Positions 33,580 to 56,397 of a stretch of DNA of 64,000 nt are shown one piece after another (within the stretch, counting starts at the first letter, position 1; every line of letters begins with the position of its first letter). The position numbers were made by a program, and so were the translations under genes. Source of the stretch: Candidatus Saccharimonadota bacterium (GTDB lineage Bacteria > Patescibacteriota > Saccharimonadia > Saccharimonadales > Saccharimonadaceae). The DNA lies in the NCBI GenBank assembly GCA_017513185.1, contig JAFXGL010000003.1, forward strand, positions 42,447 to 106,446, read 5' to 3'. The notes under the pieces are model-generated. The model had not been told where the DNA came from. It ran no database searches and worked only from the letters and a program-made list of their open reading frames with translations.

Positions 33580-33595
33580 GTTTCTAGTTTACCAA

Positions 33596-39872: not shown

Positions 39873-39900
39873 AATCTCTGTTTCCTGTTGGTGTTAGTGA

Positions 39901-40902: not shown

Positions 40903-40940
40903 TTAATAACTCCTTTGATTATTAATAATTGTTTAACGAT

Positions 40941-41615: not shown

Positions 41616-41655
41616 CTATCTCCTTTCTCTACCTTTAGATTTAATATAACTTCAC

Positions 41656-42357
41656 TCATGCTACACTTTTTCTCGCAGTTTTCCTCCTTTCTTCCAATGT
41701 CCCTGGCAGGAATGTCCACGCCAGTAGGAGAGTGCCCGCTACCAGTGTGATATAAATGCCGGGAGGCTGTTGGATGTTATGTGCGATGTAACCAAGATAC
41801 GGAATGGTGAGAATTGGCGTGCCGAGCACGTTTTTGTAGTGGACGAGGGCGGCGTCTGGGGAGGAGTTGGCATCGCCCTGGGTGCGGAAGCGGAGAACAG
41901 TGGGGTCTTTTTCGTCAACTTCGATGCCGACGATGCGGTGGGTGACGACGGTTTTGTCGTTGTTGGCGACGTAGGAGATGACGTCACCGACCTGGAGAGA
42001 TTTGTAATCGGCAGGCTGGACGTAAATCATGGAGCCGACGGGATAATCTGGCTCCATGGAGCCGGACATGACAGTGAAAGTGCGGAAGCCGAGGATCTTG
42101 GCGCCGACGAGGGCGACAGCGAGGATGGCAACAGCGGCGGTGGCGAGAGTGCCAAGTTTGCTGCGGAGAAGTTTGAAGCGGGAGCGCTTGGGGGCGGAGG
42201 TGTCTGCAAACTTGGTGACGGTAGTGGTGAGGATGGGGGCGGGAGTTTCTGTAGGATCTTCGACGAAGTTGACCGGAATGACACGAGTGCGAGAGACGGA
42301 AAATTTTGGATAAAAAATTTCACTATAAACCACAACCGGAATCTTGGTTTGTGACAT
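41656..42357 (-). CDS. sipW: SipW-like (ER-type) signal peptidase I
   Basis: A 233-residue membrane protease. The catalytic serine lies in TVMSGSMEPDYPVGS; the second motif is VVTHRIVGI, with His where bacterial type-I peptidases have Lys, which defines the SipW/ER type; the third is FRTQGDANSSPD. One membrane helix is at about residues 68-90 and one at the C-terminus, giving the SipW topology. It should process the three TasA-like precursors encoded downstream, whose signals carry the matching YFTDT pattern. The N-terminal cytoplasmic part of 60 residues is long. Confidence 0.88.
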   Translation of the reverse strand: MSQTKIPVVVYSEIFYPKFSVSRTRVIPVNFVEDPTETPAPILTTTVTKFADTSAPKRSRFKLLRSKLGTLATAAVAILAVALVGAKILGFRTFTVMSGSMEPDYPVGSMIYVQPADYKSLQVGDVISYVANNDKTVVTHRIVGIEVDEKDPTVLRFRTQGDANSSPDAALVHYKNVLGTPILTIPYLGYIAHNIQQPPGIYITLVAGTLLLAWTFLPGTLEERRKTARKSVA

Positions 42358-42464: not shown

Positions 42465-43946
42465 ATGAACTTGAAGAAGAAGGTCATGGAAGTTCCTGGG
42501 TATAATAAGCTGGTGAAGCCGGTGCATTTGACGCGGGCGATTTCTGCTGGGATGAAGTATAAGTTCCCGGCGAAGGGGATGAAGGTGATAGGGGTGACGG
42601 GGACGAACGGGAAGACGTCGACGTGTTTTTATATCTGGAAAATGCTGAATGAATCCGGACATCCGTGCGGCATAATGACGACTGTAGGTTGGGGCGGCGT
42701 CTCGCGGCGGTCTGCGTCTTCAGCAGATGCGTTGCTCACTCGACGTATGTCAAATACGTCTCGTTCCGCTACTCCTGCTTCATCGCATACCATCCGCGAT
42801 ACATCCGCCTTTAAATTGCACTCCGAATTAAATCACATGACTACTGTCGATCCGAAGGTTTTGAATCAGAGAATAGACGCTATCAAGCGTGCGGGGGCGA
42901 AGTATTTGGTGCTAGAGGTGACGAGCCATGCGATGGAGCAGTTTAGGACGCTGGGGGTACCTATTGAGGTGGCGGTGTTTACTAACCTGACGCACGAGCA
43001 TTTGGACTATCATAAGACGATGGAGAATTATCGCAAGGCGAAGTGTAAATTGTTTAAGAAGGCGAAGTTTGGAGTGATAAATGCGGACGACAAGAATAGT
43101 CGAGCGTTTATGAAGGTGGCAAAAGAATATATCACATATGGTATAAAAAACGGAAAGTTGCGCGCTAGGAAGGTGAAATTTGGCGTGGATGGCGGAGAAT
43201 ATGCATGCGGTGATATGAAAATTAAAACGAAGCTTCCGGGGGAGTTTAATGTGTATAATTCCCTAGCGGCAGTGGCAGTGGGGCAGAGGCTGGGGCTGGA
43301 TGATGAGGAGATAGAGAAAGGCATTGCGGCGCTAGAGAGCGTGGAGGGGCGGATGACGCGAGTGGATGAGGGACAGGATTTTAGCGTGATAGTGGACTAT
43401 GCGCATACGCCGGATGCACTAGAGAAGGCGTTTAAGGCGCTGGGCGAGGTGAAGGGGCGAGTGATTTCTGTGCATGGTGGGGCGGGGAGGAGAGATGAGA
43501 CGACGAGAGCGGAGCGCGGGGAGATATTGGCAAGAAATAGCGATATTGTGATAATTACCGAGGATGATTCGAGAGACGAGGACCCGGAGAAGATTGCCCG
43601 GCAGTTTGTGGAGGGGGCGGAAAAAGGTGGGAAGATTGAGGGGAAAAATTTGGCGGTGAACCTGGACCGGGAGGAGGCGATACGAGCAGCTATAAGACTT
43701 GCAAGGAAGGGGGATGTGGTGTTGCTACTAGGTAAGGGGCACGAGAAGAGCATCCTTAGGGCGGACGGGGCGCACGAGTTTGAAGATATAAAGGTGGCGC
43801 AGAAGTATTTGCGCGAGAGGGTGAGAGAGGATGAGCTGCGGCGAGAGGCGGCGGAAAAGGCGCGGAAGCTCAAAGAGGAGGTGGAGCGTAAAGAGGCAGA
43901 GCGAAAGCGCAAAGAGGAAGATAGGTACGGAAACATTACGGAGTAG
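42465..43946 (+). CDS. murE: Mur ligase, MurE-like (UDP-MurNAc-tripeptide synthetase)
   Basis: A 493-residue ligase that adds the third residue of the peptidoglycan stem peptide. The ATP loop GVTGTNGKTSTC lies near residue 46, so the usual N-terminal UDP-binding domain is mostly missing. LELDYHKTMENYRKAK, VDYAHTPDALEKAF and VHGGAGRRDETTR follow the family, with DDSR near the position of the DNPR motif that reads the diamino acid. Between VGWGG and ELNHMTTVDP there is an extra segment of about 39 residues coded by a palindrome. A charged helical tail of about 40 residues is also extra. TATAAT nine bases before the ATG suggests a leaderless transcript. Confidence 0.88.
   Translation: MNLKKKVMEVPGYNKLVKPVHLTRAISAGMKYKFPAKGMKVIGVTGTNGKTSTCFYIWKMLNESGHPCGIMTTVGWGGVSRRSASSADALLTRRMSNTSRSATPASSHTIRDTSAFKLHSELNHMTTVDPKVLNQRIDAIKRAGAKYLVLEVTSHAMEQFRTLGVPIEVAVFTNLTHEHLDYHKTMENYRKAKCKLFKKAKFGVINADDKNSRAFMKVAKEYITYGIKNGKLRARKVKFGVDGGEYACGDMKIKTKLPGEFNVYNSLAAVAVGQRLGLDDEEIEKGIAALESVEGRMTRVDEGQDFSVIVDYAHTPDALEKAFKALGEVKGRVISVHGGAGRRDETTRAERGEILARNSDIVIITEDDSRDEDPEKIARQFVEGAEKGGKIEGKNLAVNLDREEAIRAAIRLARKGDVVLLLGKGHEKSILRADGAHEFEDIKVAQKYLRERVREDELRREAAEKARKLKEEVERKEAERKRKEEDRYGNITE
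42693..42809. repeat. 117-bp palindromic element inserted in murE
   Basis: The segment starts GGCGG and ends CCGCC, with an imperfect inverted repeat throughout: TCGCGG/CCGCGA, CTGCG/CGCAT, AGCAG/CTGCT and the central GACGTATGTCAAATACGTC. It is 39 codons long and keeps the frame. The encoded Ser/Arg-rich stretch (RRSASSADALLTRR) has no counterpart in MurE proteins. Confidence 0.75.
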
Positions 43947-43962
43947 CCGACAGGGCTAGTGC

Positions 43963-43991
43963 TTGATATTTTTGCTGTTTTATGATATAAT
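43963..43991 (+). promoter_or_regulatory. Consensus-type promoter of the LRR gene
   Basis: TTGATA (43963-43968), 17-bp spacer, TATAAT (43986-43991) with TATG before it. The transcript begins with a small hairpin (GGCAC/GTGCC, 44003-44019). A near-identical promoter with a similar hairpin precedes the gene at 48793. Confidence 0.7.
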
Positions 43992-44062
43992 GAAGGGAGA
44001 TAGGCACTTTGGAGGTGCCATTGTTGTTTTGTAATCTGTTGCGAAGATAAAGGAGGGGTAAA

Positions 44063-44761
44063 ATGCAAGGTAAACGCGAGCCAATGAATTTGGCAGACTT
44101 ACGGGAGAAATTGAGAGAAGATAAGATTGAGACGGAAGGAGTGACTGTGGAGCCAGTAGTGGAGCCGACGGAAGCGCCGAGGCGCAGACGTAGGCGGAGG
44201 TATTATGAGGCGAGCGATACGTCGTCGAGACTGACGATACCGGAAGGAACGGAAACGATTGAAGAAAGTGCCTATAGAGACCGGGCGGAATTGGTGACAG
44301 TGGTGTTGCCGAAGACGCTGAAGTATATCGGTAAGGGCGCGTTTGAAGATTGCAAAAATCTGAGAGAGATTGTGTTTCCGGAGGGGCTGAAGCTGATTGA
44401 CGACCGCGCGTTTAAGGATTGTCGGAATCTAGAGAAGGTAGTGATACCAGGAAGCGTAGAGAGAGTGGGCGCGTTTGCGTTTTGTCGCTGCGAGAGTTTG
44501 GAAGAGTTGAAGATTATGGATGGAGTGCGACAACTGGGAAGGTGGGCCTTTGCGGACTGCTATGCCCTGACGAATTTTCATAAGCGAGACTTGCCGAGAA
44601 GCCTGAGTAAGACGATGCAGCTGGCGGATACGCGAGTGGTGCCGACCTGGACGGAAGCGTTTTATGGGTCGCCCTGTGCGAGGACAGTGAAAGACAAGCG
44701 GCGGCAAAAGGCCGCGAGGAAGTGGAACGAGAAAATGATAATGCTGCAACGGATTATGTAA
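44063..44761 (+). CDS. BspA-type leucine-rich repeat (LRR_5) protein
   Basis: A 232-residue protein with no signal peptide or membrane helix. After a charged N-terminus (RRRRRRRYYEAS) come about four LRR_5 repeats: LTIPEGTETIEESAYRD, VVLPKTLKYIGKGAFEDC, IVFPEGLKLIDDRAFKDC, VVIPGSVERVGAFAFCRC. LRR_5 repeats are best known in host-binding surface proteins, so a cytoplasmic form is unusual and probably mediates protein contacts. The start has AAAGGAGG at five bases. A terminator follows directly. Confidence 0.82.
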   Translation: MQGKREPMNLADLREKLREDKIETEGVTVEPVVEPTEAPRRRRRRRYYEASDTSSRLTIPEGTETIEESAYRDRAELVTVVLPKTLKYIGKGAFEDCKNLREIVFPEGLKLIDDRAFKDCRNLEKVVIPGSVERVGAFAFCRCESLEELKIMDGVRQLGRWAFADCYALTNFHKRDLPRSLSKTMQLADTRVVPTWTEAFYGSPCARTVKDKRRQKAARKWNEKMIMLQRIM

Positions 44762-44797
44762 AAAATCCCCCGGATTATATCCGGGGGAGATTTTTGT
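44761..44797. terminator. Bidirectional terminator between the LRR gene and rny
   Basis: TCCCCCGG-7 nt-CCGGGGGA with AAAAA before and GATTTTTG after; it serves both converging genes. Confidence 0.9.
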
Positions 44798-44799
44798 GT

Positions 44800-46317
44800 T
44801 TATTTGGCGTATTCGACTGCTCTAGTTTCTCGAATGACATTAACTTTTATTACCCCTGGGTAGGACATGGTGGCTTCAATCTTGTTGGCGATGTCGCGAG
44901 CGAGTTTGAGGGCGGTTAAGTCGTCGATTTGTTTGGGCTCGACAATGACACGGATTTCTCTACCGGCGGAGATGGCGTAAGCCTTGTCGATGCCGGGGAA
45001 GGAGGTGGCGATGTTTTCTAGGTCGCGCATGCGTTCGGCGAAGTTTTCTGCGGAGATGTTACGAGCGCCGGGGCGAGCGGCAGAGATGGCGTCGCAAATC
45101 TTGACGATGATGGCTTCGGGGGTGGTGGGCTCGATGTCGTCGTGGTGAGCGGCGATGGCGTGGACGATGGCGTCGGGCATGCCGTATTTTTTGGCGAGTT
45201 CGGCGCCGATGTCGGCGTGCTTGCCTTCGATTTTGTGGGTGACGGCCTTGCCCATGTCGTGGAGGAGGGTGGCGGTCTTGGCGATGCGCTTGTCGGCGCC
45301 AATTTCTTCGGCAATCATGCCGGCCATGTGGGCCATTTCGATGGAGTGCAAGAGGACGTTTTGACCGTAGGAGGTACGGAATTTGAGCTCACCTAGGAGG
45401 TGGAGAATCTCGCGCGGGATACCGACGACGCCAACTTCGCGAGCGGCGTCTTCGCCGGCGCGAACGACTTCTTTTTCTATTTCTTTTTCGCCTTTTTGGA
45501 CGGCTTCTTCGATACTAGCGGGGTTGATGCGGCCGTCTTTCATGAGGCGCTCAAGAGCGTAGCGAGCGACTTGGCGACGAATGGGGTCGAAGGAGCTTAA
45601 GATGACCATGCCGGGGGCGTCGTCGACAACGATGTCGACGCCGGTGGCGCGCTGGAGAGCCTGGATGTTACGGCCTTCCTTGCCGATGATGCGGCCTTTC
45701 ATCTCGTCGTCGGGGAGCTTGAGGGCGGTGATGGTGCGGTCGGCGGTGACTTCGCTAGACATGCGCTCCATAGCGGTGAGGAGGATGCTTTGCGCGGTCT
45801 CGTCGACGTCGTGTTTGATTTCTTTTTGTTCTTTGGCGACGAGGTTGACGAGATCTTGGCGGATGTCGTTTTCGGTCATTTTCATGAGCTTTTCGCGGGC
45901 TTCAGTTTTGCTTAAAGCGGCGATTTTCTCGAGCTTTTCGTGCTGTTTGGCGCGGATGTCACGGACTTCGTTTTTTAAATCTTCAAGTTCTTTTTCGGAC
46001 TTGTTGAGGCGCTCGGTCTTTTTCTCTAGTTGGTCGAGCTTGCTGTCGAGGGAAGTTTCGCGTTCCATGAGGCGATTTTCGGTGCGCTTCCATTCTTTGC
46101 GGCGTTCAGCTTCCTCGGCCTGGGACTTGGACGCGATGCGGGAGGCTTCTTTTTTGGCTTCGAGGACGATGTCGCCGGCCTCGTGTTTGGCCTTACGGAT
46201 GAGGTCGTCGGCTTTGTTTTTGCCGCCGTTTTCTTTCTTTTTATTGTATGCGAAAAGGCCGCCGGCGCCTAAACCAAGGCCAGCTACGACAGCTATCACA
46301 ATGGAGACTATTTCCAT
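44800..46317 (-). CDS. rny: Ribonuclease Y
   Basis: A 505-residue endonuclease of mRNA decay. An N-terminal membrane helix (VSIVIAVVAGLGLGAGGLFAY) is followed by a long coiled coil (about residues 30-190), a KH domain with GRIIGKEGRNIQAL, and an HD domain with HSIEMAHMAGMIA and LLHDMGKAVTHKI, ending VKVNVIRETRAVEYAK. Length and domain order match the family. RNase Y starts bulk mRNA turnover in Gram-positives lacking RNase E. The stop lies three bases from the shared terminator. Confidence 0.96.
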   Translation of the reverse strand: MEIVSIVIAVVAGLGLGAGGLFAYNKKKENGGKNKADDLIRKAKHEAGDIVLEAKKEASRIASKSQAEEAERRKEWKRTENRLMERETSLDSKLDQLEKKTERLNKSEKELEDLKNEVRDIRAKQHEKLEKIAALSKTEAREKLMKMTENDIRQDLVNLVAKEQKEIKHDVDETAQSILLTAMERMSSEVTADRTITALKLPDDEMKGRIIGKEGRNIQALQRATGVDIVVDDAPGMVILSSFDPIRRQVARYALERLMKDGRINPASIEEAVQKGEKEIEKEVVRAGEDAAREVGVVGIPREILHLLGELKFRTSYGQNVLLHSIEMAHMAGMIAEEIGADKRIAKTATLLHDMGKAVTHKIEGKHADIGAELAKKYGMPDAIVHAIAAHHDDIEPTTPEAIIVKICDAISAARPGARNISAENFAERMRDLENIATSFPGIDKAYAISAGREIRVIVEPKQIDDLTALKLARDIANKIEATMSYPGVIKVNVIRETRAVEYAK

Positions 46318-46429
46318 GGGTTGCTCTTTCTAATTGTCGTGTGTCTAGGGTTTGACTGTCCTAGACGGTATAACAAATTATCAAAATTTTATATTCCACC
46401 TCTATTGTAACATATTTTGTGGATTTTGG

Positions 46430-46777
46430 CTATTTTTTCGGCTGGGAGATGTTGGCGGGGCGACCGTAGTCGGGGAGGATAATCTGGTGTTTAATTCCCT
46501 TGTGGTCGTAGAGAGGGATGTTTAATTCGTGGCTTAAAGTGTTGACGATGGCGCTGCCGATGCGAAGGCCGGTGAAGGAGCCGGGGCCGGACATGAAGGT
46601 GATTTTTTTGAGGTCTTTCCAGGTTTTGCCGTGGTCTTTGAGGTGAGATTCTAGGGTGCTGAGGAGTTTTTCTGCCATTTCGCGACCTAAGTTGTCCTCG
46701 TAGCTAAAAGTTTGGCCGGTTTCGTCGGTGAGCTGGATTTTGGCGATGAAATCGGAGGTGTCAAGATATAAGTTCAT
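46430..46777 (-). CDS. tsaB: TsaB-like t6A-modification subunit, minimal form
   Basis: A 115-residue protein that matches only the N-terminal lobe of TsaB: LYLDTSDFIAKIQL, the dimer-interface region, and the hallmark ITFMSGPGSFTGLRIGSA. Standard TsaB has about 220-230 residues, so the second lobe is absent. TsaB scaffolds TsaD and TsaE in forming t6A37 of tRNAs. The frame is open upstream but the ATG at 46777 starts the family domain. It overlaps the tsaE stop by 17 bases. Confidence 0.82.
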   Translation of the reverse strand: MNLYLDTSDFIAKIQLTDETGQTFSYEDNLGREMAEKLLSTLESHLKDHGKTWKDLKKITFMSGPGSFTGLRIGSAIVNTLSHELNIPLYDHKGIKHQIILPDYGRPANISQPKK

Positions 46778-47234
46778 TTTTAAGTCCTTTGATTTGAAGG
46801 TCGCGAGAGCCGTCTTCGAGGGTGCGGAAGGTGATGGTGATGTGGTCTTTTGGGAGGATATTTTTGACGGAGTTGGCCCATTCGAGGATGACGATGGCGG
46901 AGGGGTTTGTGAGTGATTCCTGAAGGTCGTCGAGCATGAGACCGGGGTTTTCAAGGCGGTAAAAATCATAGTGAATGAGCTCAAAATTACCGACAGGGGT
47001 GGCACCTCTGTGGCTTGCGCGTTTTTGCTGCGCGCTCCATTCGTAGCGGTTGCAGATGGTGAAGGAGGGGGAGGTGACGGGAGCTTTGATGCCGAGGCCT
47101 TTGGCGAGAGCGCGGGTGAAGGTGGTTTTGCCGGCGCCGACGTCGCCGATGAGCTCAAAAACTAGAGGCGGCTCTAAAGTCCTACCTAAGTTTTCGGCGA
47201 AGGTGGTTAGTTCTTGTTCGGTCTTAAATAACAC
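46761..47234 (-). CDS. tsaE: tRNA t6A-modification ATPase TsaE
   Basis: A 157-residue ATPase with Walker A ELIGDVGAGKTTFTRALA, PVTSPSFTICNRYE, HYDFYRLENPG and the late VILEWANSVKNIL. It drives turnover of the TsaBD complex. GTG at 47234 is taken as start because TATAAT sits six bases upstream and VLFKTEQELTTFAENLG aligns with family starts; the longer open frame would run through the tRNA-Gln. Between NRYE and FELIHYDF there is an insertion of about 18 residues (WSAQQKRASHRGATPVGN) coded by a palindromic segment. Confidence 0.88.
   Translation of the reverse strand: MLFKTEQELTTFAENLGRTLEPPLVFELIGDVGAGKTTFTRALAKGLGIKAPVTSPSFTICNRYEWSAQQKRASHRGATPVGNFELIHYDFYRLENPGLMLDDLQESLTNPSAIVILEWANSVKNILPKDHITITFRTLEDGSRDLQIKGLKNELIS
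46992..47040. repeat. Small palindromic insertion in tsaE
   Basis: Two adjoining inverted repeats: ACAGGGGTG-G-CACCTCTGT (46993-47011, one mismatch) and TGGCTTGCGCG with CGCGCTCCA (47011-47039). Together they code for the extra 18 residues in TsaE without shifting the frame. Confidence 0.6.
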
Positions 47235-47297
47235 GGATACATTATAGCATGCTTGACGATTTGAGGAAATAAGGGTAGAATGTAAGGGTCCACGTGG

Positions 47298-47372
47298 TGG
47301 ACCGTCGCCAAGTGGTAAGGCACTGGGTTTTGATCCCAGCATTCGCAGGTTCGAATCCTGCCGGTCCAGCCA
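47298..47372 (+). tRNA. tRNA-Gln(UUG)
   Basis: Seventy-five bases. TGGACCG pairs with CGGTCCA, discriminator G, encoded CCA. The anticodon stem CTGGG/CCCAG holds the loop TTTTGAT with anticodon TTG (codon CAA, and CAG by wobble). The T-arm carries GGTTCGAATCC. The U1-A72 first pair is typical of glutamine tRNAs. Confidence 0.95.
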
Positions 47373-47388
47373 AGATTTGATTAAAATG

Positions 47389-47415
47389 AAAGAGCCAGCC
47401 CTTAGGGGGCTGGCT
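47389..47415. terminator. Hairpin shared by tRNA-Gln and GGDEF gene ends
   Basis: AGCCAGCCC-TTAGG-GGGCTGGCT (47393-47415). On the minus strand it is followed by CTTTCATTTT. It overlaps the last codons of the GGDEF gene. Confidence 0.7.
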
Positions 47416-48616
47416 GATTTGATGAAGGTGGGGGAGTAGTGTCGCTTTTGTGTGAGGCGGCTTTGTTTTGGTACATGCGCCGGTCGGCAAGTTCGATGAC
47501 TTTTTCGAGAGAGATTTGTTCCTTGATGCTGGGGTAGCTGGACTGGGAGTAGAAGATGCCGTAGCCCTGGGAGATGCCAGAGGACAGGTAGCTGTCGGCG
47601 TTGGGCTTGTTTTCGGCGCGGATGAGTTCTTCTAGACGGGCCATGAGTTTGCTAGCCATAGAGTAAGCGTCGTGGTGAGGAGTTTCTTCGATTAATCTCT
47701 CGAAAGCGCCGGGTTTGAGGATGGCGCAAAATTCGTCGCCGCCGGTGCGGAAGCAGTAGGCGTATCGGCTGTAAGCTTTGCAAATGAGGCCGGCGAGCTG
47801 CCGCAAGGTTTGGTCACCACATTCGTGACCGTAAGTGTCGTTGATTTGTTTGAAATCGTTGACATCAATGGTGATGACGATAGTGGTGTAGCTAATCTTT
47901 TTGATGAGTCTAGAGTAGACCTGGCGGTTAAGCAGCTTAGTCAAGGGGTCGATGCGAAGCGTGACGTGCGAGTAGTAGACGAGTATAAACGGGATAGAGA
48001 CGGACATGCAGAGGAAGTCGTAGTTGGTGTTTGGGAAGATGTTGCGAAGGACGATGCCGGTGATGAGGATGATGGTGAAAGAGGACAAGGTGCCTTTCAT
48101 GATACTCTGAGTTTTGTTGGAGAAAGTGAGGATTCCGAAAACCAGGAGTATGATGGTGATGAGTAGGACGACGAGGTAGGCGTACACGAGTGGTCCGCGG
48201 TGGTAGGCGTTGGCTTCGTCGATGAAGAAAACGCCTTTGCCGAAGATGGTGGCAGCCTGGAGCGCGATGTCGAGGATAATCATGGCGAGCATAGCGTGGT
48301 GAATCTTGATCATGGTGTGGTCGTGTCGGACGGATTTTTTGTCGTAAAAAATGCCGAAGACGAGGAACGCCAGGACAGGATTGAGGCTGAGCTCGAGGTA
48401 CTTGATGAGATAAAGGAGACTGCTGGCGACGGATTGCTTTTCGAGCAAGGCGAAGGCACAGTCGATGATAATCTCAAACATGAGGACATAGGTGAGTGTC
48501 TGGAATTTTCTGATGGTTTTGACCGAGAAGGTGTCATTTTCTCCGAGGTGGACTAGACAGCCTATCAAAAAAAGGATTGATGTCCCTGCAGTGATGCAGT
48601 AGTTGGTAATTTCCAT
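47402..48616 (-). CDS. Membrane-bound diguanylate cyclase (GGDEF)
   Basis: A 404-residue protein with about seven N-terminal membrane helices (residues 5-215), then a GGDEF domain: DPLTKLLNRQVYSRL, VITIDVNDFKQINDTYGHECGD and CFRTGGDEFCAIL, keeping the active-site residues. The inhibitory RxxD site before GGDEF is absent (RYAY). Such enzymes make cyclic di-GMP from GTP. No EAL domain, HD-GYP domain or PilZ receptor is seen in the window. A Pro/Ser-rich tail ends the protein. Confidence 0.9.
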   Translation of the reverse strand: MEITNYCITAGTSILFLIGCLVHLGENDTFSVKTIRKFQTLTYVLMFEIIIDCAFALLEKQSVASSLLYLIKYLELSLNPVLAFLVFGIFYDKKSVRHDHTMIKIHHAMLAMIILDIALQAATIFGKGVFFIDEANAYHRGPLVYAYLVVLLITIILLVFGILTFSNKTQSIMKGTLSSFTIILITGIVLRNIFPNTNYDFLCMSVSIPFILVYYSHVTLRIDPLTKLLNRQVYSRLIKKISYTTIVITIDVNDFKQINDTYGHECGDQTLRQLAGLICKAYSRYAYCFRTGGDEFCAILKPGAFERLIEETPHHDAYSMASKLMARLEELIRAENKPNADSYLSSGISQGYGIFYSQSSYPSIKEQISLEKVIELADRRMYQNKAASHKSDTTPPPSSNQPAP

Positions 48617-48704
48617 AAGCCCCTCCTTATCAAAATGGAAATGTGCGTTCTGAACGAATTGATGTATTATAGCACAAAGAGAGCGCTAAGGGAAGGGGGT
48701 ATAT

Positions 48705-48764
48705 TGACTTTTTTATTGTTTTATGATATAATGAAAGGATAGTGCCTGCCTATTATGCGGGCAG
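48705..48764 (+). promoter_or_regulatory. Promoter and leader hairpin of the helical-protein gene
   Basis: TTGACT (48705-48710), 16-bp spacer, TATAAT (48727-48732) preceded by TATG, then a leader hairpin CCTGCC/GGCAGG (48745-48764). It parallels the promoter at 43963 in sequence and layout. Confidence 0.65.
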
Positions 48765-48792
48765 GTAGATTAAAATGGGGGAGGTCATTTCT

Positions 48793-49170
48793 ATGAACGA
48801 AGCTTTGTTAACTAATAGGCAGAACAATTTTGCCGCGCGCAAGTGCGAGGCAGAGAGCCTGTACGATGAGTCGGAAAGATGGTGGCAGAAGAATGAGAAA
48901 GAGTCGGATTTTTGGAAGCTGACAGATGCAGAGGAGGAGTTGTATAAGAGGCTGCGCTATGTGGATGGGCTGATGGATGCGATTTGGAAGTTTTTGGATG
49001 AGCTGTGGGCGATTGAGTCGCCTTCGGCGGAGGAGAAGGAAGCGAAAGATTATCTGGTGAAGCTGTACGATGAAGTGCATAGCGTGTACAAGAAGTTTTC
49101 CGAGCTACTGAGAACGGCGCGTGACCGGATGGTGCTGGTGCATGCACTGGCAACAGAAGAAGAAAATTGA
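48793..49170 (+). CDS. Predicted all-helical cytoplasmic protein
   Basis: A 125-residue, charged protein without signal or membrane helix, rich in Glu/Lys/Trp (SERWWQKNEKESDFWKL, MDAIWKFLDELWAIE) and with heptad-like patterns pointing to helical bundles or a coiled coil. I do not recognise it. The ATG at 48793 has GGGGGAGG at eight bases; an in-frame ATG 18 bases earlier lacks a site. It shares promoter architecture with the LRR gene, hinting at co-regulation. Confidence 0.7.
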   Translation: MNEALLTNRQNNFAARKCEAESLYDESERWWQKNEKESDFWKLTDAEEELYKRLRYVDGLMDAIWKFLDELWAIESPSAEEKEAKDYLVKLYDEVHSVYKKFSELLRTARDRMVLVHALATEEEN

Positions 49171-49234
49171 CGTGGCGCGAGCTGCGCGAGGAGGAGAAGA
49201 AGAATTTGTGAAGAGAAAGGAGATGACCTAAAAA

Positions 49235-49265
49235 AGTTTAGCCCCGATATTATCGGGGCTTTTTG
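49235..49265. terminator. Terminator between the helical-protein gene and valS
   Basis: AGCCCCGATA-TTA-TCGGGGCT followed by TTTTTG; on the minus strand the flank is AAACTTTTTT, so it can serve both genes. Confidence 0.9.
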
Positions 49266-52016
49266 CTATTCGATGACGGAGAGTTCGAGCTTCAGCCGTT
49301 CGATTAAAGCTTTCTTTTCTGTGATGCCCTTTTTGGTTTCTTCGACGAGGTGGGCGGGGGCTTTGGCGACGTAGTTAGGGTTGAACATGCGGGCGTTAAG
49401 GGCGTCTAATTCCCTGCCGACTGAGAGAATGCGGTTTTCTAGCTGGGCCTTGTAGGTCTTGACGATGTCGGTGGGGACGTCGAGATAGACTTCGCGGCCG
49501 GAGAGGGCGAGCCGGATGCCCTTGGGCGTGCCGTCGGTGGGGCGGATGTAGTCGGTGCGGGTGAGGTGGCGGATAAGTTCGGCGTTGTCCGCGACGAGGC
49601 CGTCGTCACCGTAGAGCAGGCCGACAGAAATGCCCTTTACAGTGTCCTTAAGGCCCGCTAGGACCTTTCTAGCCTCCGAGACGGTAAGCATAAGCCTTTC
49701 GAACTGTTCGGCGCTTATAGGGTCGTATACGAGGCTTTCCGGCCATTTTTGAGTGATAAGGAGGCCGTCGGTCCAGCTGAGGGCTTGCCAAATGGTCTCC
49801 GTGAGGAAAGGCATGAAGGGGTGAGAAATGATGAGAAGGTCTTCCAGGGTGCGCTTTAAAAGTGGGAGGTTTTTGAAGAGTTTTTGGCTTTCGAGGAACC
49901 AGTCGGCGTATTTGTCCCAGATGGTGCTGTAGATGGCTTCGACGGCTTCGGAGAAGCGATAGTGCTTCATGCAGTGTTCGACGGTTTTCTTGAGGTTGTC
50001 GAGTTCGCGACAGATCCAGTCTTCGCCCATGGAGTCCGTGTCGTAAGTATAATGATTCGTTCCTTTCTCGGACACGAAGTCCTCGCTCCCGTCGTCACGG
50101 GGCTCGGCTTCTACGTCTCGGCCGTGGCCTGCGACAAGTCCTCGAGAGGAATCGAATTCATTATCCATCCACGAGTCGATGAGGCGAGCGATGTTCCAGA
50201 GTTTGTTGCAGAGATTGCGGCTGGCGACGACGGAGTCTTCGGAGAAGGCTTGGGCGAGGCCGGCGGAGCGGCCGCGAAGGATGCCAAGGCGGAAGGCGTC
50301 GGAGCCGTATTTGGCTACGAGGTCCATGGGGTTTATCACGTTGCCTTTGGACTTACTCATCTTTTTACCCTTGGAGTCGAGGACGAGGCCGTGGAGGTAG
50401 ACTTCTCTAAAGGGGACTTCGCCGGTGACGTAGAGACCCATCATAATCATGCGGGCGACCCAAGCGAAGAGAATGTCGGCGCCGGTCTCCATGACGTTAA
50501 GCGGGTAGAAGGGAGAGCCGTGCTGTGGTGTCCAGTCGGTGGTGACGATGGGCCAGTGGGAGGAGGAGAACCAAGTGTCGAAGGTGTCTTCGTCGCGGGT
50601 GTATTTGATGCCGCCGAGTTCGATTTCTTGTAAGTTGGTGCGGGTGTCGAAGACCCAGTCGGGGGCGTCGGCGAAGTTTTGGCTGCCGGTGCCGGCAGAT
50701 TCGGTGTGGGTCTTTTTGAACATGGGGATGGGGATGCCCCAAGGGATTTGGCGGGAGATGTTCCAGTCTTTGAGACCCTTTAGGTAATTGATGATGACTT
50801 GTTTTTTGCTGGCTGGGTAGAAGGTGATTTCCCCCTTTTCTAGGTGGTCGATGGCGGTCTTAGCTAGAGTTTCTACGTCGACGAACCATTGTTCTTTGAG
50901 AGTGGGTTCGATGATAGTGCCGCATTTGTAGCAGTGGGCGACAGAGTGAGTGATTTCTTTTTGACCCATGAGGAGGCCTTGGTCGGCGAGGTCTTTTAGA
51001 ACTTTGGCGCGGCATTCTTCGGTGGTGAGACCGGCGTAGTCTGGGCCGGCGGTTTCGAGCATGGTGCCGTCGTCGCCGATGACTCTCAAGTTTTCTAGGC
51101 TGTGGCGCTTGCCGACTTCAAAGTCGTCGAAGTCGTGAGCGGGAGTGATTTTGACGGCGCCGGTGCCGTATTCGGGGTCGGCGTGTTCGTCGGCGATGAT
51201 GGGGATTTCTCGGTCGGTTAATGGGAGTTTGACGTGTTTGCCGATGAGGTCTTTGTAACGCTTGTCGGCGGGGTTGACGGCGACGGCTTGGTCGCCGAAG
51301 AGAGTTTCGGGGCGGGTGGTGGAAACAATAATATAGGAAAGAGAAGTTTCCGAATCTTCTACTATTTCGTATTTTATATCCCACAAGTGGCCGGGCTCGT
51401 CAAGGTGTTCGACCTCGATGTCGGCGAAGGCGGTTTGGTGCTTGGGGCAGTAGTTGACGAGTTTTTCGCCACGGTAAATCATGCCGTCGTTCCACATTTT
51501 TTCAAAAGTTTGGTAGACGCGGCTGACGACGTTTTCGTCGAGGGTGAAGGTGAGGTCGTCCCAAGCGCAAGAGGCGCCAAGGGCGCGGACTTGGAGTTCC
51601 ATGTTTCCCCGTTGTTCTTGGACGAAGTCCCAAACTTTGGCGTAGAGTTCGTCGCGGGAGTATTCGAAGCGAGAGTGGCCGACCGCCTCGAGGGCGCGTT
51701 CGTAGACGACCCAAGTCTCGAAGCCGGCGTGGTCGGCGCCAGGGATGTACCAAGTGCTGTTCCCTTTTAGTCTGTAATATCTAGTGAGGGAGTCTTCGAG
51801 GGCGATGGTGAGGCCGTGGCCGATGTGGAGGTTGCCGTTGGCGTTGGGAGGGGGCATGACAATGGAGTAATATGATTCGCTTGCGCCAGGATTTTTAATC
51901 CCATCCCGCCCGCCCAGGGATTCTGGCGCAAGCGGATTGAAGGCGCCGGAGGCTTCCCAGGCGCGGTAGATTTCGGATTCAAATTTGTCGGGTTCGTAAG
52001 AAGAGGTGAATTTCAT
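49266..52016 (-). CDS. valS: Valyl-tRNA synthetase
   Basis: A 916-residue class I synthetase. The HIGH signature is NANGNLHIGHGLTI; the editing domain carries TTRPETLFGDQAVAV; KMSKS is KGKKMSKSKGNVI; the C-terminal coiled coil (IEKKALIERLKLELS type) is present. The ATG at 52016 is used because TATAAT lies six bases upstream and the protein then starts MKFTSSYEPDKFES, as the family does; 37 more in-frame codons lie beyond. Two insertions coded by palindromes occur: about 20 residues before YYSIVMPPPN (APESLGGRDGIKNPG) and about 38 residues near residue 630-670 (AGHGRDVEAEPRDDGSE). Both fall in loops. Confidence 0.96.
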   Translation of the reverse strand: MKFTSSYEPDKFESEIYRAWEASGAFNPLAPESLGGRDGIKNPGASESYYSIVMPPPNANGNLHIGHGLTIALEDSLTRYYRLKGNSTWYIPGADHAGFETWVVYERALEAVGHSRFEYSRDELYAKVWDFVQEQRGNMELQVRALGASCAWDDLTFTLDENVVSRVYQTFEKMWNDGMIYRGEKLVNYCPKHQTAFADIEVEHLDEPGHLWDIKYEIVEDSETSLSYIIVSTTRPETLFGDQAVAVNPADKRYKDLIGKHVKLPLTDREIPIIADEHADPEYGTGAVKITPAHDFDDFEVGKRHSLENLRVIGDDGTMLETAGPDYAGLTTEECRAKVLKDLADQGLLMGQKEITHSVAHCYKCGTIIEPTLKEQWFVDVETLAKTAIDHLEKGEITFYPASKKQVIINYLKGLKDWNISRQIPWGIPIPMFKKTHTESAGTGSQNFADAPDWVFDTRTNLQEIELGGIKYTRDEDTFDTWFSSSHWPIVTTDWTPQHGSPFYPLNVMETGADILFAWVARMIMMGLYVTGEVPFREVYLHGLVLDSKGKKMSKSKGNVINPMDLVAKYGSDAFRLGILRGRSAGLAQAFSEDSVVASRNLCNKLWNIARLIDSWMDNEFDSSRGLVAGHGRDVEAEPRDDGSEDFVSEKGTNHYTYDTDSMGEDWICRELDNLKKTVEHCMKHYRFSEAVEAIYSTIWDKYADWFLESQKLFKNLPLLKRTLEDLLIISHPFMPFLTETIWQALSWTDGLLITQKWPESLVYDPISAEQFERLMLTVSEARKVLAGLKDTVKGISVGLLYGDDGLVADNAELIRHLTRTDYIRPTDGTPKGIRLALSGREVYLDVPTDIVKTYKAQLENRILSVGRELDALNARMFNPNYVAKAPAHLVEETKKGITEKKALIERLKLELSVIE
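50049..50164. repeat. 116-bp palindromic insertion in valS (C-terminal side)
   Basis: Arms ATAATGA-TTCG-TTCCT at the left match AGGAATCGAATTCATTAT at the right, with further matches CGGACACG/CCTGCGAC and CACGG/CCGTG flanking the centre near 50105. The centre contains TACGTCTCGG, the complement of the GAGACGTA core seen in other elements. The frame stays open. Confidence 0.7.
51875..51938. repeat. 64-bp palindromic insertion in valS (N-terminal side)
   Basis: Perfect 12-bp arms CGCTTGCGCCAG (51878-51889) and CTGGCGCAAGCG (51923-51934), extended by GGATT/GGATT-type matches, enclose a GC-rich loop (CCCATCCCGCCCGCCCAGGG). The element lies in the coding frame just before the catalytic MPPPN segment. 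Confidence 0.8.
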
Positions 52017-52132
52017 GAGATTATTATAGCATGATTTTTGGTAGATTGACAGACGGAGAGGGAGTTGATATAATGATTTCCTAGCTTCTCGAGGGAGGGG
52101 CTTGAAATTTTTTAGGAAGGAGGACAAGCTGA

Positions 52133-52321
52133 ATGAAAGACTTGTCCAAGAAGAAGCGTGGTTTTAGGTATCTGTTGGCGGCTGCGGCTGCGGAAGGGGA
52201 GTCGATTAAGAGTCCCAAGCCCAGCTATGTGGACCGGCGTTTGACGAAGCCTGGAGTGGGGAGGTGTCCGTTCCGGACCATTGTCCCATGCCGGGCGACC
52301 GGCAATGGAACCAAAAAGTGA
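52133..52321 (+). CDS. Small basic protein
   Basis: A 62-residue basic protein (KDLSKKKRGFRYLLAAAAAEG, SYVDRRLTKPGVGRC) with two cysteines near the C-terminus (GRCPF and VPCRA). A TATAAT promoter near 52069, a strong AGGAAGGAGG ribosome site and a perfect terminator 24 bases after the stop support a real gene. No family recognised. It could bind nucleic acid. Confidence 0.65.
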   Translation: MKDLSKKKRGFRYLLAAAAAEGESIKSPKPSYVDRRLTKPGVGRCPFRTIVPCRATGNGTKK

Positions 52322-52344
52322 TGTTTCTTCCTTCCCTATGCAAT

Positions 52345-52370
52345 TCCCTGCCAGTTGGCAGGGATTTTTT
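52345..52370 (+). terminator. Terminator of the small basic protein gene
   Basis: TCCCTGCCA-GT-TGGCAGGGA followed by TTTTTT. Confidence 0.93.
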
Positions 52371-52723
52371 ATGAATTTTTTTGACATCAAAACGTAAACG
52401 GTTTATTTTATTTGACAATGTCAAAAAATTGTATGCCGTTTGTGCTTTTTGTGTGATTTTTGTATGTTTTGTTTCTACACTCGCCCAAAAGCTTGATTTT
52501 TTTGTACGCAGTTGCGCTTTTGGTTAGTTTTATTGTAATAAACTTGGGTTGCTAAGTCAAGAGGGTGCTAATAATAGGTGATTAAGTAATATTTACTTTG
52601 TGGAAAATATAGATTTTTTCTAAACCGAAAAAAGTGAATATACCCCTTGGGCGCCTTCGGCGCCCAAGGGCGCTCGCTTCGCTCGCGCCCTTTTTCCGAA
52701 AGTTTTTGTGGTATTATAAAAGT
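52371..52723. other. AT-rich intergenic region with operator-like palindromes
   Basis: No gene is seen in these 353 bases. TTTGACA-A-TGTCAAA (52411-52425) is a perfect 7-bp palindrome with a TTGACA -35-like arm, suggesting a regulator site. Base composition is T-rich on this strand. The right end holds two GC-rich hairpins. Confidence 0.5.
52645..52695. repeat. Double GC-rich hairpin before the DUF3800 pair
   Basis: CCTTGGGCGCC-TTC-GGCGCCCAAGG is a perfect 11-bp stem (52645-52669), followed at once by GGGCGCTCGC-TTC-GCTCGCGCCC and TTTTT. It may act as an insulating terminator, a palindromic element of the type found in genes nearby, or a structured RNA. Confidence 0.65.
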
Positions 52724-52930
52724 ATGGCGTTTATAAGAAAGTTCAAGACAGGGTCGGGGAAGACTGGGGTGCAGGTGTGTTATAAAAGGGAAGGGAAGGT
52801 CGTGAGAACGGTGCATGTGGGGAGTGCGGAGACAGAGGAGGGGATTGAAAGGTTGCTCCGCAAAGCGCAGGGAATTATAGACGAGGGGAAGAGTCCGTTA
52901 TTTGATTTGAGTGATTTTGATAAGAAGTGA
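52724..52930 (+). CDS. Small protein resembling an IS1634-type transposase N-terminus
   Basis: A 68-residue protein: FIRKFKTGSGKTGVQVCYKR, VHVGSAETEEGIERLL. This resembles the short N-terminal domain of IS1634-type transposases (VKTGSGATAVQ... HIGSAHTE...), but no catalytic domain follows. The ATG at 52724 has TATTAT six bases before it. It lies 23 bp upstream of a DUF3800 gene, a pairing I believe recurs elsewhere. It is either a domesticated DNA-binding domain or an accessory of the DUF3800 protein. Confidence 0.65.
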   Translation: MAFIRKFKTGSGKTGVQVCYKREGKVVRTVHVGSAETEEGIERLLRKAQGIIDEGKSPLFDLSDFDKK

Positions 52931-52953
52931 TACCTCTGTGATATAATTTAGGG

Positions 52954-53664
52954 GTGATAAGAGTGTATGTGGATGAGTCGGGGAATATGGGTGCAGAGGG
53001 GGAGTATTTTGTGTTGGCTGCGGTGGTGTTTAAGACGGAGAAGAGTGAGGCGAGAGCGAGGCGGTTGATTCGGAAGGAGCAGCGACTGGGGGCGGCGGGG
53101 GAGAAGCTGAGGAAGGTGCGGCGGGAGGTGAAGTTTTCTAAAATGAAGTTTGAGCAGCGGCAGCGAGTGTTGAACGAGATTGCCCGGGAGGAGAGTGTGG
53201 ACGTGTTTTATTTTGTGGCGTATAAGCCAAGGTGCGCGCTGTTGATGGCGGGGAAGAAGAAAAATTTGATATATAATTATTTTTCTAAACTTTTGATGGA
53301 GCGGGTGTTCCGCCGGTATGATGATGATTTTGAGATTGTGTTTGATCAGCGGGCGACGGCGGTGAAGTCGATGAATAGCCTAACGGAGTATATACAGATT
53401 TCTGCGTATGTGGATTTTCCGAATTTGACGGGGAAGAGGGTGACGGTGAATCAGGCGGATTCGCGGACGAATTTTTTGTTGCAGGTGGCGGATGTGGTGG
53501 CCGGGGCGGCGGCGCAGGCGTATACGCTGGGGAATCGGCATTTTTTGGAGATATTGGGGAGGAAGATTAAGGCGATAGATGAGTTTCCGAAAAAAGGGTT
53601 TAGAGGTTCGCAGAAGCTGGGGATTGGAAAATTGTTGTTAATTGATAAGTTGCGCGGTTACTAA
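52954..53664 (+). CDS. DUF3800 protein
   Basis: A 236-residue protein starting at GTG with RVYVDESGNMGAEGEYFVLAAVVF and later FDQRATAVKS and FLLQVADVVAGAAAQA, the conserved YxDESG and QxADxxAG motifs of DUF3800. The acidic residues fit an RNase H-like nuclease fold. Genes of this family are scattered by horizontal transfer and often near mobile or defence genes. TATAAT six bases before the GTG indicates a leaderless transcript. It probably works with the small upstream protein. Confidence 0.82.
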   Translation: MIRVYVDESGNMGAEGEYFVLAAVVFKTEKSEARARRLIRKEQRLGAAGEKLRKVRREVKFSKMKFEQRQRVLNEIAREESVDVFYFVAYKPRCALLMAGKKKNLIYNYFSKLLMERVFRRYDDDFEIVFDQRATAVKSMNSLTEYIQISAYVDFPNLTGKRVTVNQADSRTNFLLQVADVVAGAAAQAYTLGNRHFLEILGRKIKAIDEFPKKGFRGSQKLGIGKLLLIDKLRGY

Positions 53665-53690
53665 AAAGACGCCCCGAAGAGCGTCTTTAA
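53664..53690 (+). terminator. Terminator of the DUF3800 gene
   Basis: AAAGACGC-8 nt-GCGTCTTT (53665-53688) immediately after the stop codon; the trailing T run is short. Confidence 0.7.
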
Positions 53691-53772
53691 AGCTGCTTTT
53701 GATTCGGCGCCGGGAGGCGCTAACTTATTTTAACGGTAAGCTCCTCAAAAGTCTTATGCCGTTTATATTATA

Positions 53773-54723
53773 TCATATTTTGCGTAATTTGTGGTTAACC
53801 TTGCGGAGGGCTTTGTAGAGGGTGTATTTTTGTTTGTTTAAAACGAGGTCGTAGGTGCCGGAGTAGGTGAGGGGTGCGCCGCCGAAAGATTTTTTGAAGC
53901 GGGTGAAGCCGGCCCAGGGGTGATCTTTGGGTGCGTCATCGGGGGCGATACCCCAGAAGTCGAAGGTTTTGAGGCCTTTTGCTTTGGCGTCGAAGATGGA
54001 GGCGCAAAGGAGGCCGACGGTGGTGGGGAGGTTTTTGTAGGTGGGGTCGGAGGCGGATTGCATGTAGTAGCGAGTGGAGTTGGTTTCGTCGTCGAAGAAG
54101 AGGGAAGCGGCGACGATTTGGTCTTTCTGAGTGTCAGGATCTTGAAGGTGGACGAGGTAAAGGGAGGCGAAGGGCTGTCTAAGTTCGTTTTCTAGGTATT
54201 TTTGGTCGTAGGCGGTGATGCCTTTTTTCTTGGCGAGGGCGGTTTGAAGGCGGACGAGGTGGGCGATGTCTTTGGGGTTGTGTGAGACTTCGACAGAGAG
54301 GTGTCTGCGAGGGAATTGGTTGTGGCCGAGGCGGGTGCCGTGCGAGAAGCCCAAAATGAGGTCTTCTCTCGCTGGGGAGAGGTCGAGGCGCCAGGTGTGG
54401 GCTGGGTCGATGTCTTTGGTCTTGGTGAGGCCCATATGAGCTAATGTGGAGGCCGAGAAAGCGTAAGTGGGTTCGAGACGGATGAAGATGGCTTTTTGGT
54501 CCTTTGCGAGGCTTACGAGCGATTCTAGGGCCTTTTTAAGGCATTTTTCTGGCTGGGTGGTGCTGATGCTGGGGCCATATGGTACGAAAAGGTAGGGGCC
54601 GAGCTTGGTGGGTTTTTTTATGGCGAGGTAGGAGAAGTCGGGGGTGGAGTGGCGGAAAGTTTGGTGGCCGAGGGATTGTTCAAAAGTTTCCCAGTCTTTA
54701 GATTGAAGGAAGTGTTGATACAT
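53773..54723 (-). CDS. FemX/FemAB-like peptidoglycan bridge transferase
   Basis: A 316-residue protein with FLQSKDWETFEQSLGHQTF, PYLFVPYGPSIS, IFIRLEPTYAF, FSHGTRLGHNQFPRRH and YYMQSASDP, matching lipid II:glycine glycyltransferase-like enzymes (GNAT-like double domain). These add amino acids from aminoacyl-tRNA to the peptide stem of wall precursors. The C-terminal basic tail (KQKYTLYKALRKVNHKLRKI) may contact tRNA or membrane. TATAAT six bases before the ATG makes the transcript probably leaderless. Confidence 0.85.
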   Translation of the reverse strand: MYQHFLQSKDWETFEQSLGHQTFRHSTPDFSYLAIKKPTKLGPYLFVPYGPSISTTQPEKCLKKALESLVSLAKDQKAIFIRLEPTYAFSASTLAHMGLTKTKDIDPAHTWRLDLSPAREDLILGFSHGTRLGHNQFPRRHLSVEVSHNPKDIAHLVRLQTALAKKKGITAYDQKYLENELRQPFASLYLVHLQDPDTQKDQIVAASLFFDDETNSTRYYMQSASDPTYKNLPTTVGLLCASIFDAKAKGLKTFDFWGIAPDDAPKDHPWAGFTRFKKSFGGAPLTYSGTYDLVLNKQKYTLYKALRKVNHKLRKI

Positions 54724-54745
54724 AATTTTATTATATCACAAGGTA

Positions 54746-55182
54746 TGAAAAAGGGCCCGCGATGGTGCGGGCCCAGGGTAGTAGGTCGTGCAGTTTTGTG
54801 TGACAGAAGCACCTTTGGGTTCTAGGTGTCGCTCAAGCGACAAGCGCGAGGGCAACGATAGCTCGCTTTGCGTTGGCTATCCAAAACCTGAAGGGTGGCG
54901 GGGCGCGCGATCGTTCCTAAAGGGGCAAAATTGCAGCAGATGGGAATTTCTGAACTTGGGCGAACCGTGGTATTTTGGTATGTTGTTGGTTATTTGTCGT
55001 TTGTCCGAAACATGGAGCGTTAGGATATATCGAGAATCTACTGCTGATAGTGCCGGCCTAAAGGGCGAAATTAATTAACCGCTAGAGCTTCAGGCGCTTC
55101 GCGCGTGGAAAATTGCCCATTGGGGCCACCTCCTACCTATTGGAATTAAAGGGCAACCTAGAAACCTCCTTTCGTAGGTGAT
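54746..55182 (-). ncRNA. Probable structured RNA of about 430 nt, unassigned
   Basis: The 468-bp gap has no credible long gene. On the minus strand a promoter is visible: TTGCGC, 17 bp, TAAAAT (55189-55194), and the transcript would end at a strong hairpin GGGCCCGC-6 nt-GCGGGCCC (54753-54774) with TTTTT. A long-range helix joins GGTTTCTAGGT (55156-55166) with ACCTAGAACC (54818-54827), ten pairs with one bulge; TTGCCC/GGGCAA and GTCGCT/AGCGAC are local stems. Length fits RNase P RNA or tmRNA, but I find neither the RNase P core nor a tmRNA tag or CCA end. It also contains two strong Shine-Dalgarno-like motifs, one before a 12-codon frame. Confidence 0.6.
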
Positions 55183-55191
55183 GAAAAGATT

Positions 55192-56397
55192 TTAACACAA
55201 AAGACTACGGGGCGCAAGGGTTAATTTGTAGGGGTCGGTGGGGCTGACGCCGCTCTTGATTTCCCAGTAGGCGGCCATGGCGACCATGGCGGCGTTGTCG
55301 CCAGAGAACTCTGGGCTCGGGAAAAAGATTTTTGGCTTGGCTTCTAGGGCTTGCGGTCGAGCGCTCTTGTCGGGGTCTCCAGACTCGGTCCGGGACGTCA
55401 TACTCTGGGAATCCGGGAAAGATTGCTCATTCTTCGCAACTTTCTCGGTTCCGTCAGGAATATACGTCGCGGCCCTCGCAGGTGGAAAAGACCCCGACGA
55501 AGAGCATCTCTCCCCGCGCCTAGAAGCCGCTCCCCGTAGCTCTTTATTTGCCGATACTCCTCCTGCGAAGACTATGCTTTTTATGTCTCTGTATTCTAAT
55601 AAAGCCAAATTTAATTTTTCTAACAAAATGTCGATAGCGGTCTTTTGGAAGCTGGCGGCGAAGTCGGCGATTTGTTCAGTGGTGAGTAAGTTTTTTAAGT
55701 CGTGGGAGGGGTAGTCGAGGCCGACGTCGCATTCTTTTTGAACGGTGCGGAGGACGGCGGTTTTGAGGCCAGAGAAGGAGAAGTTGAGGCCGTCGACCTG
55801 GGGGTGGGGGAAGCGATATTTGGTTGGGTTGCCTTTCTGGGCGGCTTTGGCGATGGAGGGGCCGCCGGGGTAGGGAAGACCTAAGATTTTGGCGATTTTG
55901 TCGAAGCATTCGCCGACGGCGTCGTCTAAAGTGGTGCCGATAATCTGAAAGTCGTTATGCCTAGGCATGTAGATGATTTGGGTGTGGCCGCCGGAGATGA
56001 CAAGGGCTAAAAGAGGGAACTCAGGAGTTTGGTCTGAGAGCCAATTGCTATAAATGTGACTTTTGAGGTGGTGGACGGCGTAGAGGGGTTTGTTGTGCAG
56101 GATTGCTAGAGTGCGGGCGGTGAGAGTGCCAATGAGGAGGCTGCCGAGGAGACCGGGGGTGTGGGTGACGGCGATGTGGGTGATGTCGTCCCAAGTAACG
56201 TGGGCGTCTGCGATAGCTTTGTCGATGACAGGGAGGATGGCCTCGAGGTGGCTGCGGGCGGCGACTTCGGGGATGACGCCACCGTAAGCTTTGAAGATGT
56301 CGATTTGGGAGACGACGACGTTAGAAAGAAGTTCACCGTCTTTTAAGATGGCGGCAGCTGTTTCGTCACACGAAGATTCTATCCCCAAGATAATCAT
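55192..56397 (-). CDS. tsaD: tRNA t6A threonylcarbamoyl transferase TsaD
   Basis: A 401-residue catalytic subunit. LGIESSCDETAAAIL starts the ASKHA fold; the metal-binding region holds HHLKSHIYSNWL; GGHTQIIYM, DDAVGECFDKIAKILGLPYPGGP and FAGGVSANKELR are family motifs; the end has FFPSPEFSGDNAAM. After NKELR, about 60 extra residues (SFPPARAATYIPDG, SQSMTSRTESGDPD) are coded by a 190-bp palindrome; homologues have about 12 residues there. Since the flanking motifs are intact the protein is probably functional. TATAAT eight bases before the ATG. Confidence 0.93.
   Translation of the reverse strand: MIILGIESSCDETAAAILKDGELLSNVVVSQIDIFKAYGGVIPEVAARSHLEAILPVIDKAIADAHVTWDDITHIAVTHTPGLLGSLLIGTLTARTLAILHNKPLYAVHHLKSHIYSNWLSDQTPEFPLLALVISGGHTQIIYMPRHNDFQIIGTTLDDAVGECFDKIAKILGLPYPGGPSIAKAAQKGNPTKYRFPHPQVDGLNFSFSGLKTAVLRTVQKECDVGLDYPSHDLKNLLTTEQIADFAASFQKTAIDILLEKLNLALLEYRDIKSIVFAGGVSANKELRGAASRRGERCSSSGSFPPARAATYIPDGTEKVAKNEQSFPDSQSMTSRTESGDPDKSARPQALEAKPKIFFPSPEFSGDNAAMVAMAAYWEIKSGVSPTDPYKLTLAPRSLLC
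55339..55528. repeat. 190-bp palindromic element inserted in tsaD
   Basis: Begins GGCTTCTAGG and ends CCTAGAAGCC. Inner matches include GCTCTTGTCGGGGTCT with AGACCCCGACGAAGAGC and, at the centre, GGGAAAGATTGC/GCAACTTTCTC around CTCATTCTTC. It is the longest of the set and keeps the reading frame open. Confidence 0.8.

Follow-up and report, generated by a model that had tools for sequence, protein, structure and literature searches.

The subject of this report is a set of hairpin-forming inserts in conserved genes of a Saccharibacterium, found in a window of 64 kb (the whole stretch of DNA that we analysed, 64,000 nucleotides) at positions 42447-106446 of contig C6; the source genome has 755,095 bases and is 99.26% complete. 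An earlier note on this DNA held that palindromic elements lie in frame in murE, in valS at two sites, in tsaE and in tsaD. We find this borne out for murE, the second valS site and tsaD, whose fold z-scores (-2.2, -3.3 and -3.8, respectively) are below the lowest value (-1.74) among 100 background windows taken from the same 64 kb; the first valS site and tsaE provide weaker cases, described further below. The murE insert (42693-42809, + strand; model match 42702-42811) scores 130.1 bits with the covariance model of a family that we name R1, and its upstream arm at 42693-42701 (GGCGGCGTC) is the WGGV motif of the host protein, mirrored by GATACATCCGCC at 42798-42809. At the second valS site, the insert (50047-50166, - strand; model match 50060-50152) is composed of an outer stem plus two arms, and scores 76 bits with the model of another family, R2. 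Both of these sequences were used to build the respective model. The insert in tsaD (55338-55530, - strand) has arms at 55520-55529 and 55339-55348 and the motif CGCAAGC at 55349-55355; judged by its sequence it is a third type, besides R1 and R2, and the proposal that all the listed palindromes form one family is not supported.

Alignment with orthologues, a check that the earlier note had recommended, reveals empty sites in relatives. Our comparison set comprised 24 genomes of one genus (G000-G023) and 16 that belong to the same order but to other families (G024-G039). The murE site, compared in 17 other genomes of the genus, is empty in 15, where the alignment passes over residues 78 to ~116; of the remaining two, G017 has the same insert and G014 a different linker. 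The peptide encoded by the murE insert recurs in other proteins of G017 and G007, where it is read in the insert's frame. For valS, the second site could be read in 20 of 23 genes: seven hold a strong hairpin (156-243 nt, -58.9 to -109.7 kcal/mol), one has an insert that is long but folds weakly (141 nt, -29.9 kcal/mol), and 12 are empty, with a short linker of 60-90 nt (-5.8 to -14.2 kcal/mol). The nearest relative by valS (G002, 82% identical) is without the murE insert and both valS inserts; its tsaD gene carries a different hairpin, at another site than in the window.

For TsaD we aligned the window protein with 18 relatives, leaving out 11 further loci that had no usable frame; the 13 named loci are from Candidatus Saccharibacteria assemblies, for most of them from the ruminant gut. 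Internal inserts of at least 12 residues are present in 9 of the 19 aligned proteins (one N-terminal extension was excluded). The window's insert is 80% identical over 84 nt to that in the tsaD gene of locus L033, and in G016 (L021) one insert is present at two places in the gene, the two copies being 99% identical over 128 nt. A structure model of the window TsaD (mean predicted local distance difference test score, pLDDT, 81.8; best match 4ydu, from E. coli) keeps the TsaD fold; in this model, residues 296-340, within the insert, have a pLDDT below 50 and are predicted to be disordered within an otherwise ordered fold.

The R1 model was built from five murE-type copies and the R2 model from four valS-type copies, the window's own copy being included in each. 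With R2 we obtained at least 260 matches (E <= 0.001) in all 24 genus genomes, at least 2-31 apiece (the R2 counts per genome are lower bounds), and no match in the 16 genomes of other families. R1 matches occur in 9 of the 24, and in six of these they exceed the best score outside the genus, reaching up to 130 bits. The source genome itself has eight R1 and at least five R2 matches. Where the earlier note had named ordinary loops throughout the phylum, or a lack of further copies, as telling against its idea, both came out the other way. The core GAGACGTA, which had been put forward as shared by some of the palindromes, fails as a family marker: it has 15 sites in the genome versus 18 for its reversed control, with six of the 15 in R1 matches and one in the valS R2 match. 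We also rejected virus contigs as carriers, since an exact 16-mer of the R2 core is found in four of them with just one marginal model match (18.7 bits). An Rfam scan of five loci returned six tRNAs and no other family.

Several further loci contain related arrangements. Strong intergenic hairpins beside tRNA genes (L043 18776-18950, L037 14276-14475 and L039 1-175) carry a GCTCACTCGACG-like motif, as in the R1 core. Two loci of G008 (L221 and L228; G008:C54, C32) give many alignments of ~220-240 bp within and between them, which suggests a repeated array whose units contain R2-like elements. Two R2 copies of G022 (L169, L203) have a left flank that ends in an apparent half R2 (CTCGGGAATRTCCGGAGCT), as if one element had inserted into another.

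To describe surroundings, folds and flanks we used 96 distinct R2 copies (mostly the top-scoring of the at least 260 matches) and 28 distinct R1 copies. The R1 fold is a single long stem with conserved internal loops; that of R2 is an outer stem plus two arms with conserved loops, and conservation at 85% is seen for CGAG adjoining one arm and for CCCGTNNNGACGGG in the other. Standard base pairs fill 93.7% of pair cells in R2 versus 65.9% in shuffled alignments, both sides have changed in 30 of 32 pairs, and the covariation score is 0.62 versus 0.15 shuffled and at most 0.07 slid; the equivalent values for R1 are 90.8% versus 63.9% for standard pairs, and 0.70 versus 0.19 shuffled and at most 0.11 slid for covariation. 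The copies are related to each other, and fitting the alignments to the models biases them in favour of the structure; MAFFT alignments that predate any model show double changes in 14 of 28 and 13 of 32 pairs. The stems of R1 and R2 covary strongly.

A reading frame of at least 150 residues runs through 66 of the 96 R2 copies (in six of the 66 there is also a second one) and through 14 of the 28 R1 copies; a further 24 R2 and 11 R1 copies are intergenic by appearance. All 14 R1 copies in such frames are read in the sense direction, in a single phase and as the same peptide type. The R2 copies are read 35 times in sense and 31 times in antisense, in all phases, and have no single conserved peptide. 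Selection of R2 for freedom from stop codons is unsupported: coding copies have 3.56 open frames of six, versus 3.53 after shuffling (for R1, 2.0 versus 1.5). That the frames are open is most simply explained by the loss of harmful insertions, R2 being no freer of stops than shuffled sequence. In a hand-picked, non-random sample of 40 host proteins, 39 could be assigned to a named family. Aminoacyl-tRNA synthetases (arginyl, isoleucyl type, lysyl, alanyl) account for twelve, among which one argS gene of G017, itself the holder of three elements, is counted twice; other hosts are LepA, TruB, TrmD, MnmA, Der, GatB, DNA polymerase I, DnaG, LigA, PcrA, exonuclease III, cysteine desulfurase, PepN and RlmD.

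R2 flanks beyond the model pair with each other within the same copy in 62 of 96 cases (anchored score of at least 5), versus 22 of 759 cross pairs between copies; for R1, with the anchor at the stem end, the figures are 24 of 28 and 18 of 243. Since flanks pair within a copy and not between copies, the outer stem is specific to each copy. Locus L037 has two copies that are 98% identical inside; their outermost stems differ, yet each pairs. The linker of LepA allows host arms to be compared: 8 of 16 genus genes have a hairpin there (-46.4 to -113.4 kcal/mol) and eight do not (-2.4 to -27.7 kcal/mol), with R2 in sense orientation in G003 and antisense in G006, G007 and G012. In three of the filled LepA genes (G003, G006, G012), a PxP motif that six of the eight empty genes share is part of the upstream arm, and the downstream arm mirrors it as its reverse complement. 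For G001 and G013 it is the downstream arm that extends into host codons, those for RAL(IF), and the upstream arm that mirrors them. Together with WGGV in murE, these mirrored host motifs suggest that one flank, which may be either of the two, is copied inversely. As to the ends, some copies of G022, G000 and G016 share a left box, GCGAGCGGGGA, and a right box, GACCGCAAGCGAGC; in 12 of 96 R2 copies, CGCAAGC is found no more than 60 nt from the right end, with ~0.4 expected from the fetched loci. In the few copy pairs that have clear ends, inspection by eye showed no direct target duplication.

The window contains lesser features of the same kind. At the first valS site, a small insert (51875-51937, - strand) has CGCAAGC on each arm and arms of 18 nt that are 89% complementary; its fold z-score is only -1.78, and we consider the evidence moderate. 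The window's TsaE is ~13 residues longer than the two relatives found, owing to an insert at 46987-47036 (- strand; CGCAAGC at 47013-47019) in which the palindrome is weak and the fold ordinary (z -1.22); the evidence here is weak. CGCAAGC occurs ten times in the window, which is not above chance, and four of the ten belong to the inserts of tsaE, tsaD and the first valS site. An intergenic palindrome that had been placed near 33491-33579 is confirmed as a hairpin at 33484-33596 (+ strand; z -3.2), with an R1 score of 37.4 bits, a value that unrelated hairpins outside the genus also attain; it has the apical AGACGTACCATT.AGTACGTCTC stem in common with intergenic R1 copies. The other intergenic candidate, 52645-52695, is not a similar palindrome: it consists of two neighbouring hairpins with a run of T's after them (z -1.66), and neither the R1 nor the R2 model matches it. 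When the window is scanned for inverted repeats in general, other hairpins mostly come out above these elements.

In our search for a protein that moves the elements, a Y1 (IS200/IS605-type) transposase was rejected, being absent from all 18 genus genomes searched. Reverse transcriptase (RVT_1) is present in 11 of 15 genus genomes and in none of nine others; it was rejected as the mover because the copy-rich G003 and G004 (at least 21 and at least 15 R2 matches) have none. The source genome has two reverse transcriptases, at L287 (G000:C11:10500-16500) and L288 (G000:C10:4000-10000), with frames of 386 and 372 residues and a YxDD motif; upstream of each are a FISUMP-domain protein and another open reading frame. 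They resemble parts of diversity-generating retroelements.

We conclude that these are probably non-autonomous mobile hairpins of ~60-250 bp, outer stems included, in one genus of Saccharibacteria, and that each insertion adds the element together with an inverse copy of flanking DNA. On the sequences compared, R1 and R2 are families with a conserved core whose copies occupy intergenic positions or open frames of conserved genes, are gained or lost at fixed sites between species, and carry a copy-specific outer stem. The earlier note's reading, that repeated palindromes spread in frame into tolerated loops of housekeeping proteins as in Rickettsia, is supported by the empty sites in relatives, the same element in unrelated genes, the two near-identical copies in one tsaD gene, the two orientations at one LepA site and the further copies in the source genome. 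With an insertion, the element would arrive accompanied by the reverse complement of ~8-25 nt of one host flank. The strand that has copied the element would fold back and use its own 3' end as a primer, copy the adjacent host flank, and then go back to the original template; in this proposal, foldback and flank copying lengthen the palindrome at every new site. Host proteins would survive because variable linkers tolerate hydrophilic, unstructured peptides, and insertions that shift or end the frame would be lost. It is a tentative suggestion, somewhat short of an even chance, that the element is such a self-extending hairpin, its folded strand priming on host flank and wrapping the core in a site-specific stem, possibly without any dedicated transposase.

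A number of observations weigh against this interpretation. No mover was found in the searches described. When the R1 flank test was anchored outside 13 unpaired model columns, only 1 of 28 copies paired; beyond the homology with the nearest R2 copy, just 13 of 40 copies still pair (versus 8 of 389); some R2 copies, of which the pairs in G016 and G011 are examples, have no new outer stem; the automatic test for the host arm did not decide between the arms; and compensatory selection could also produce paired arms. Six R2 and three R1 copies are flagged as possible gene breaks, and translation of the inserts as extra protein loops is something that we infer from open frames. R1 matches are also obtained in 11 of the 16 genomes outside the genus (best score 72.8 bits), so low R1 scores are unspecific: either R1 extends beyond the genus, or its low scores catch other long hairpins.

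The alternatives account for some of these points. An ordinary transposition of the kind known for miniature inverted-repeat transposable elements (MITEs) or repetitive extragenic palindromic (REP) elements, by an enzyme that we did not recognise, would move the whole hairpin with its outer stem, and compensatory change would keep it paired; the end boxes common to copies of three genomes, the near-identical copies in G016 and G011 that lack a new outer stem, and covariation throughout the helices are all as expected from this process. We nevertheless judge it unlikely, in view of the missing Y1 transposase, the few clear-ended pairs that show no direct duplication, the outer stems that are copy-specific in 24 of 28 R1 copies despite a similar core, and the arms that take in conserved host codons. 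It is decidedly improbable that the hairpins are instead retained as mRNA structures (for stability, pausing or protein folding) with mobility rare or ancient: roughly half of the genus has nothing at these sites, R2 occurs in both orientations relative to the gene, and near-identical copies are found within one genome, even if strong covariation, conserved unpaired motifs, copies between genes and hairpins beside tRNA genes might be read as signs of function in RNA.

Hardly any credence can be given to the remaining reading, namely that the inserts are ordinary loops of variable linkers, errors of assembly or hairpins that arose by chance. The insertion sites are indeed variable linkers, the folds of tsaE and 52645-52695 are no better than background, and coding R2 copies are as rich in stops as shuffled sequence; against this, R2 matches all 24 genus genomes versus none of the 16 outside, the same peptide appears in unrelated genes, and near-identical copies occupy different sites. 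For R1 and R2, family matches, recurring peptide and near-identical copies exclude it; the tsaE insert may be an ordinary loop of this kind.

If the self-extending hairpin is real, it would represent transposition with an inverted instead of a direct target duplication. The elements' occurrence in a distant lineage, with at least 2-31 R2 matches per genome, in both orientations and with a site-specific outer stem, would make the mode of movement testable by strain comparison. They may continually supply the essential genes of streamlined bacteria with new protein loops, and such loops should not be taken for functional domains.

Two other groups of genes in the window deserve mention. Three tandem genes for small membrane proteins (32148-33486) have a C-terminal half that is nearly identical; we take their products to be possibly VirB2-like pilins. 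At 38736-42357, three minus-strand genes adjoin a signal peptidase-like gene; judged by their open reading frames, they resemble TasA/camelysin.

Several known systems invite comparison. REP elements, which are associated with RAYT transposases, measure 20-40 bp and carry GTAG or CGTC as a tag; a number of them are intragenic, and of the intragenic ones many are found in genes for replication and repair (PMC3733652). Our elements are likewise palindromic repeats with some copies inside genes, but their model cores span 99 and 110 positions, the consensus is without a conserved GTAG/CGTC end tag, and the Y1 transposase is found in 0 of 18 genus genomes. MITEs are small and non-autonomous and have inverted repeats, and in-frame fusions are known (PMC10969869); the elements described here are also small, non-autonomous and in frame, with inverted repeats, but no parent transposon was found, no direct target duplication was seen in the few pairs viewed, and the end boxes GCGAGCGGGGA / GACCGCAAGCGAGC, which could be compared with terminal inverted repeats, are present in some copies only. 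Coding palindromes in Nematomorpha mitochondria also lie within protein-coding genes; they differ in being perfect inverted repeats, in animal mitochondrial genes (PMC6649704). Among the matches listed in our literature search (titles and the starts of abstracts, with preprints and most subscription papers outside its scope), no such elements are described for Saccharibacteria, Patescibacteria or the candidate phyla radiation.

The closest resemblance is to the Rickettsia palindromic elements, for which two articles (PMC10969869, PMC3767692) give a size of ~100-150 bp, a palindromic structure, several families, in-frame location in unrelated genes, one peptide per family, and orthologues that share insertion sites with different element types; in-frame coding palindromes are there called typical of Rickettsia and Wolbachia, and their movement is left unexplained. 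The Saccharibacteria elements agree in size, in being palindromes, in having multiple copies per genome, in lying in frame in conserved, unrelated genes, and in the sharing of insertion sites by different element types in orthologues. A family peptide holds for R1 (14 of 14 in one phase) and not for R2. Points of difference are the two-armed R2 core, the copy-specific outer stems, and the occurrence of R2 in both orientations and all phases. The comparison supports the view that the Saccharibacteria elements behave like those of Rickettsia; the likeness is one of behaviour, as given in the published descriptions.

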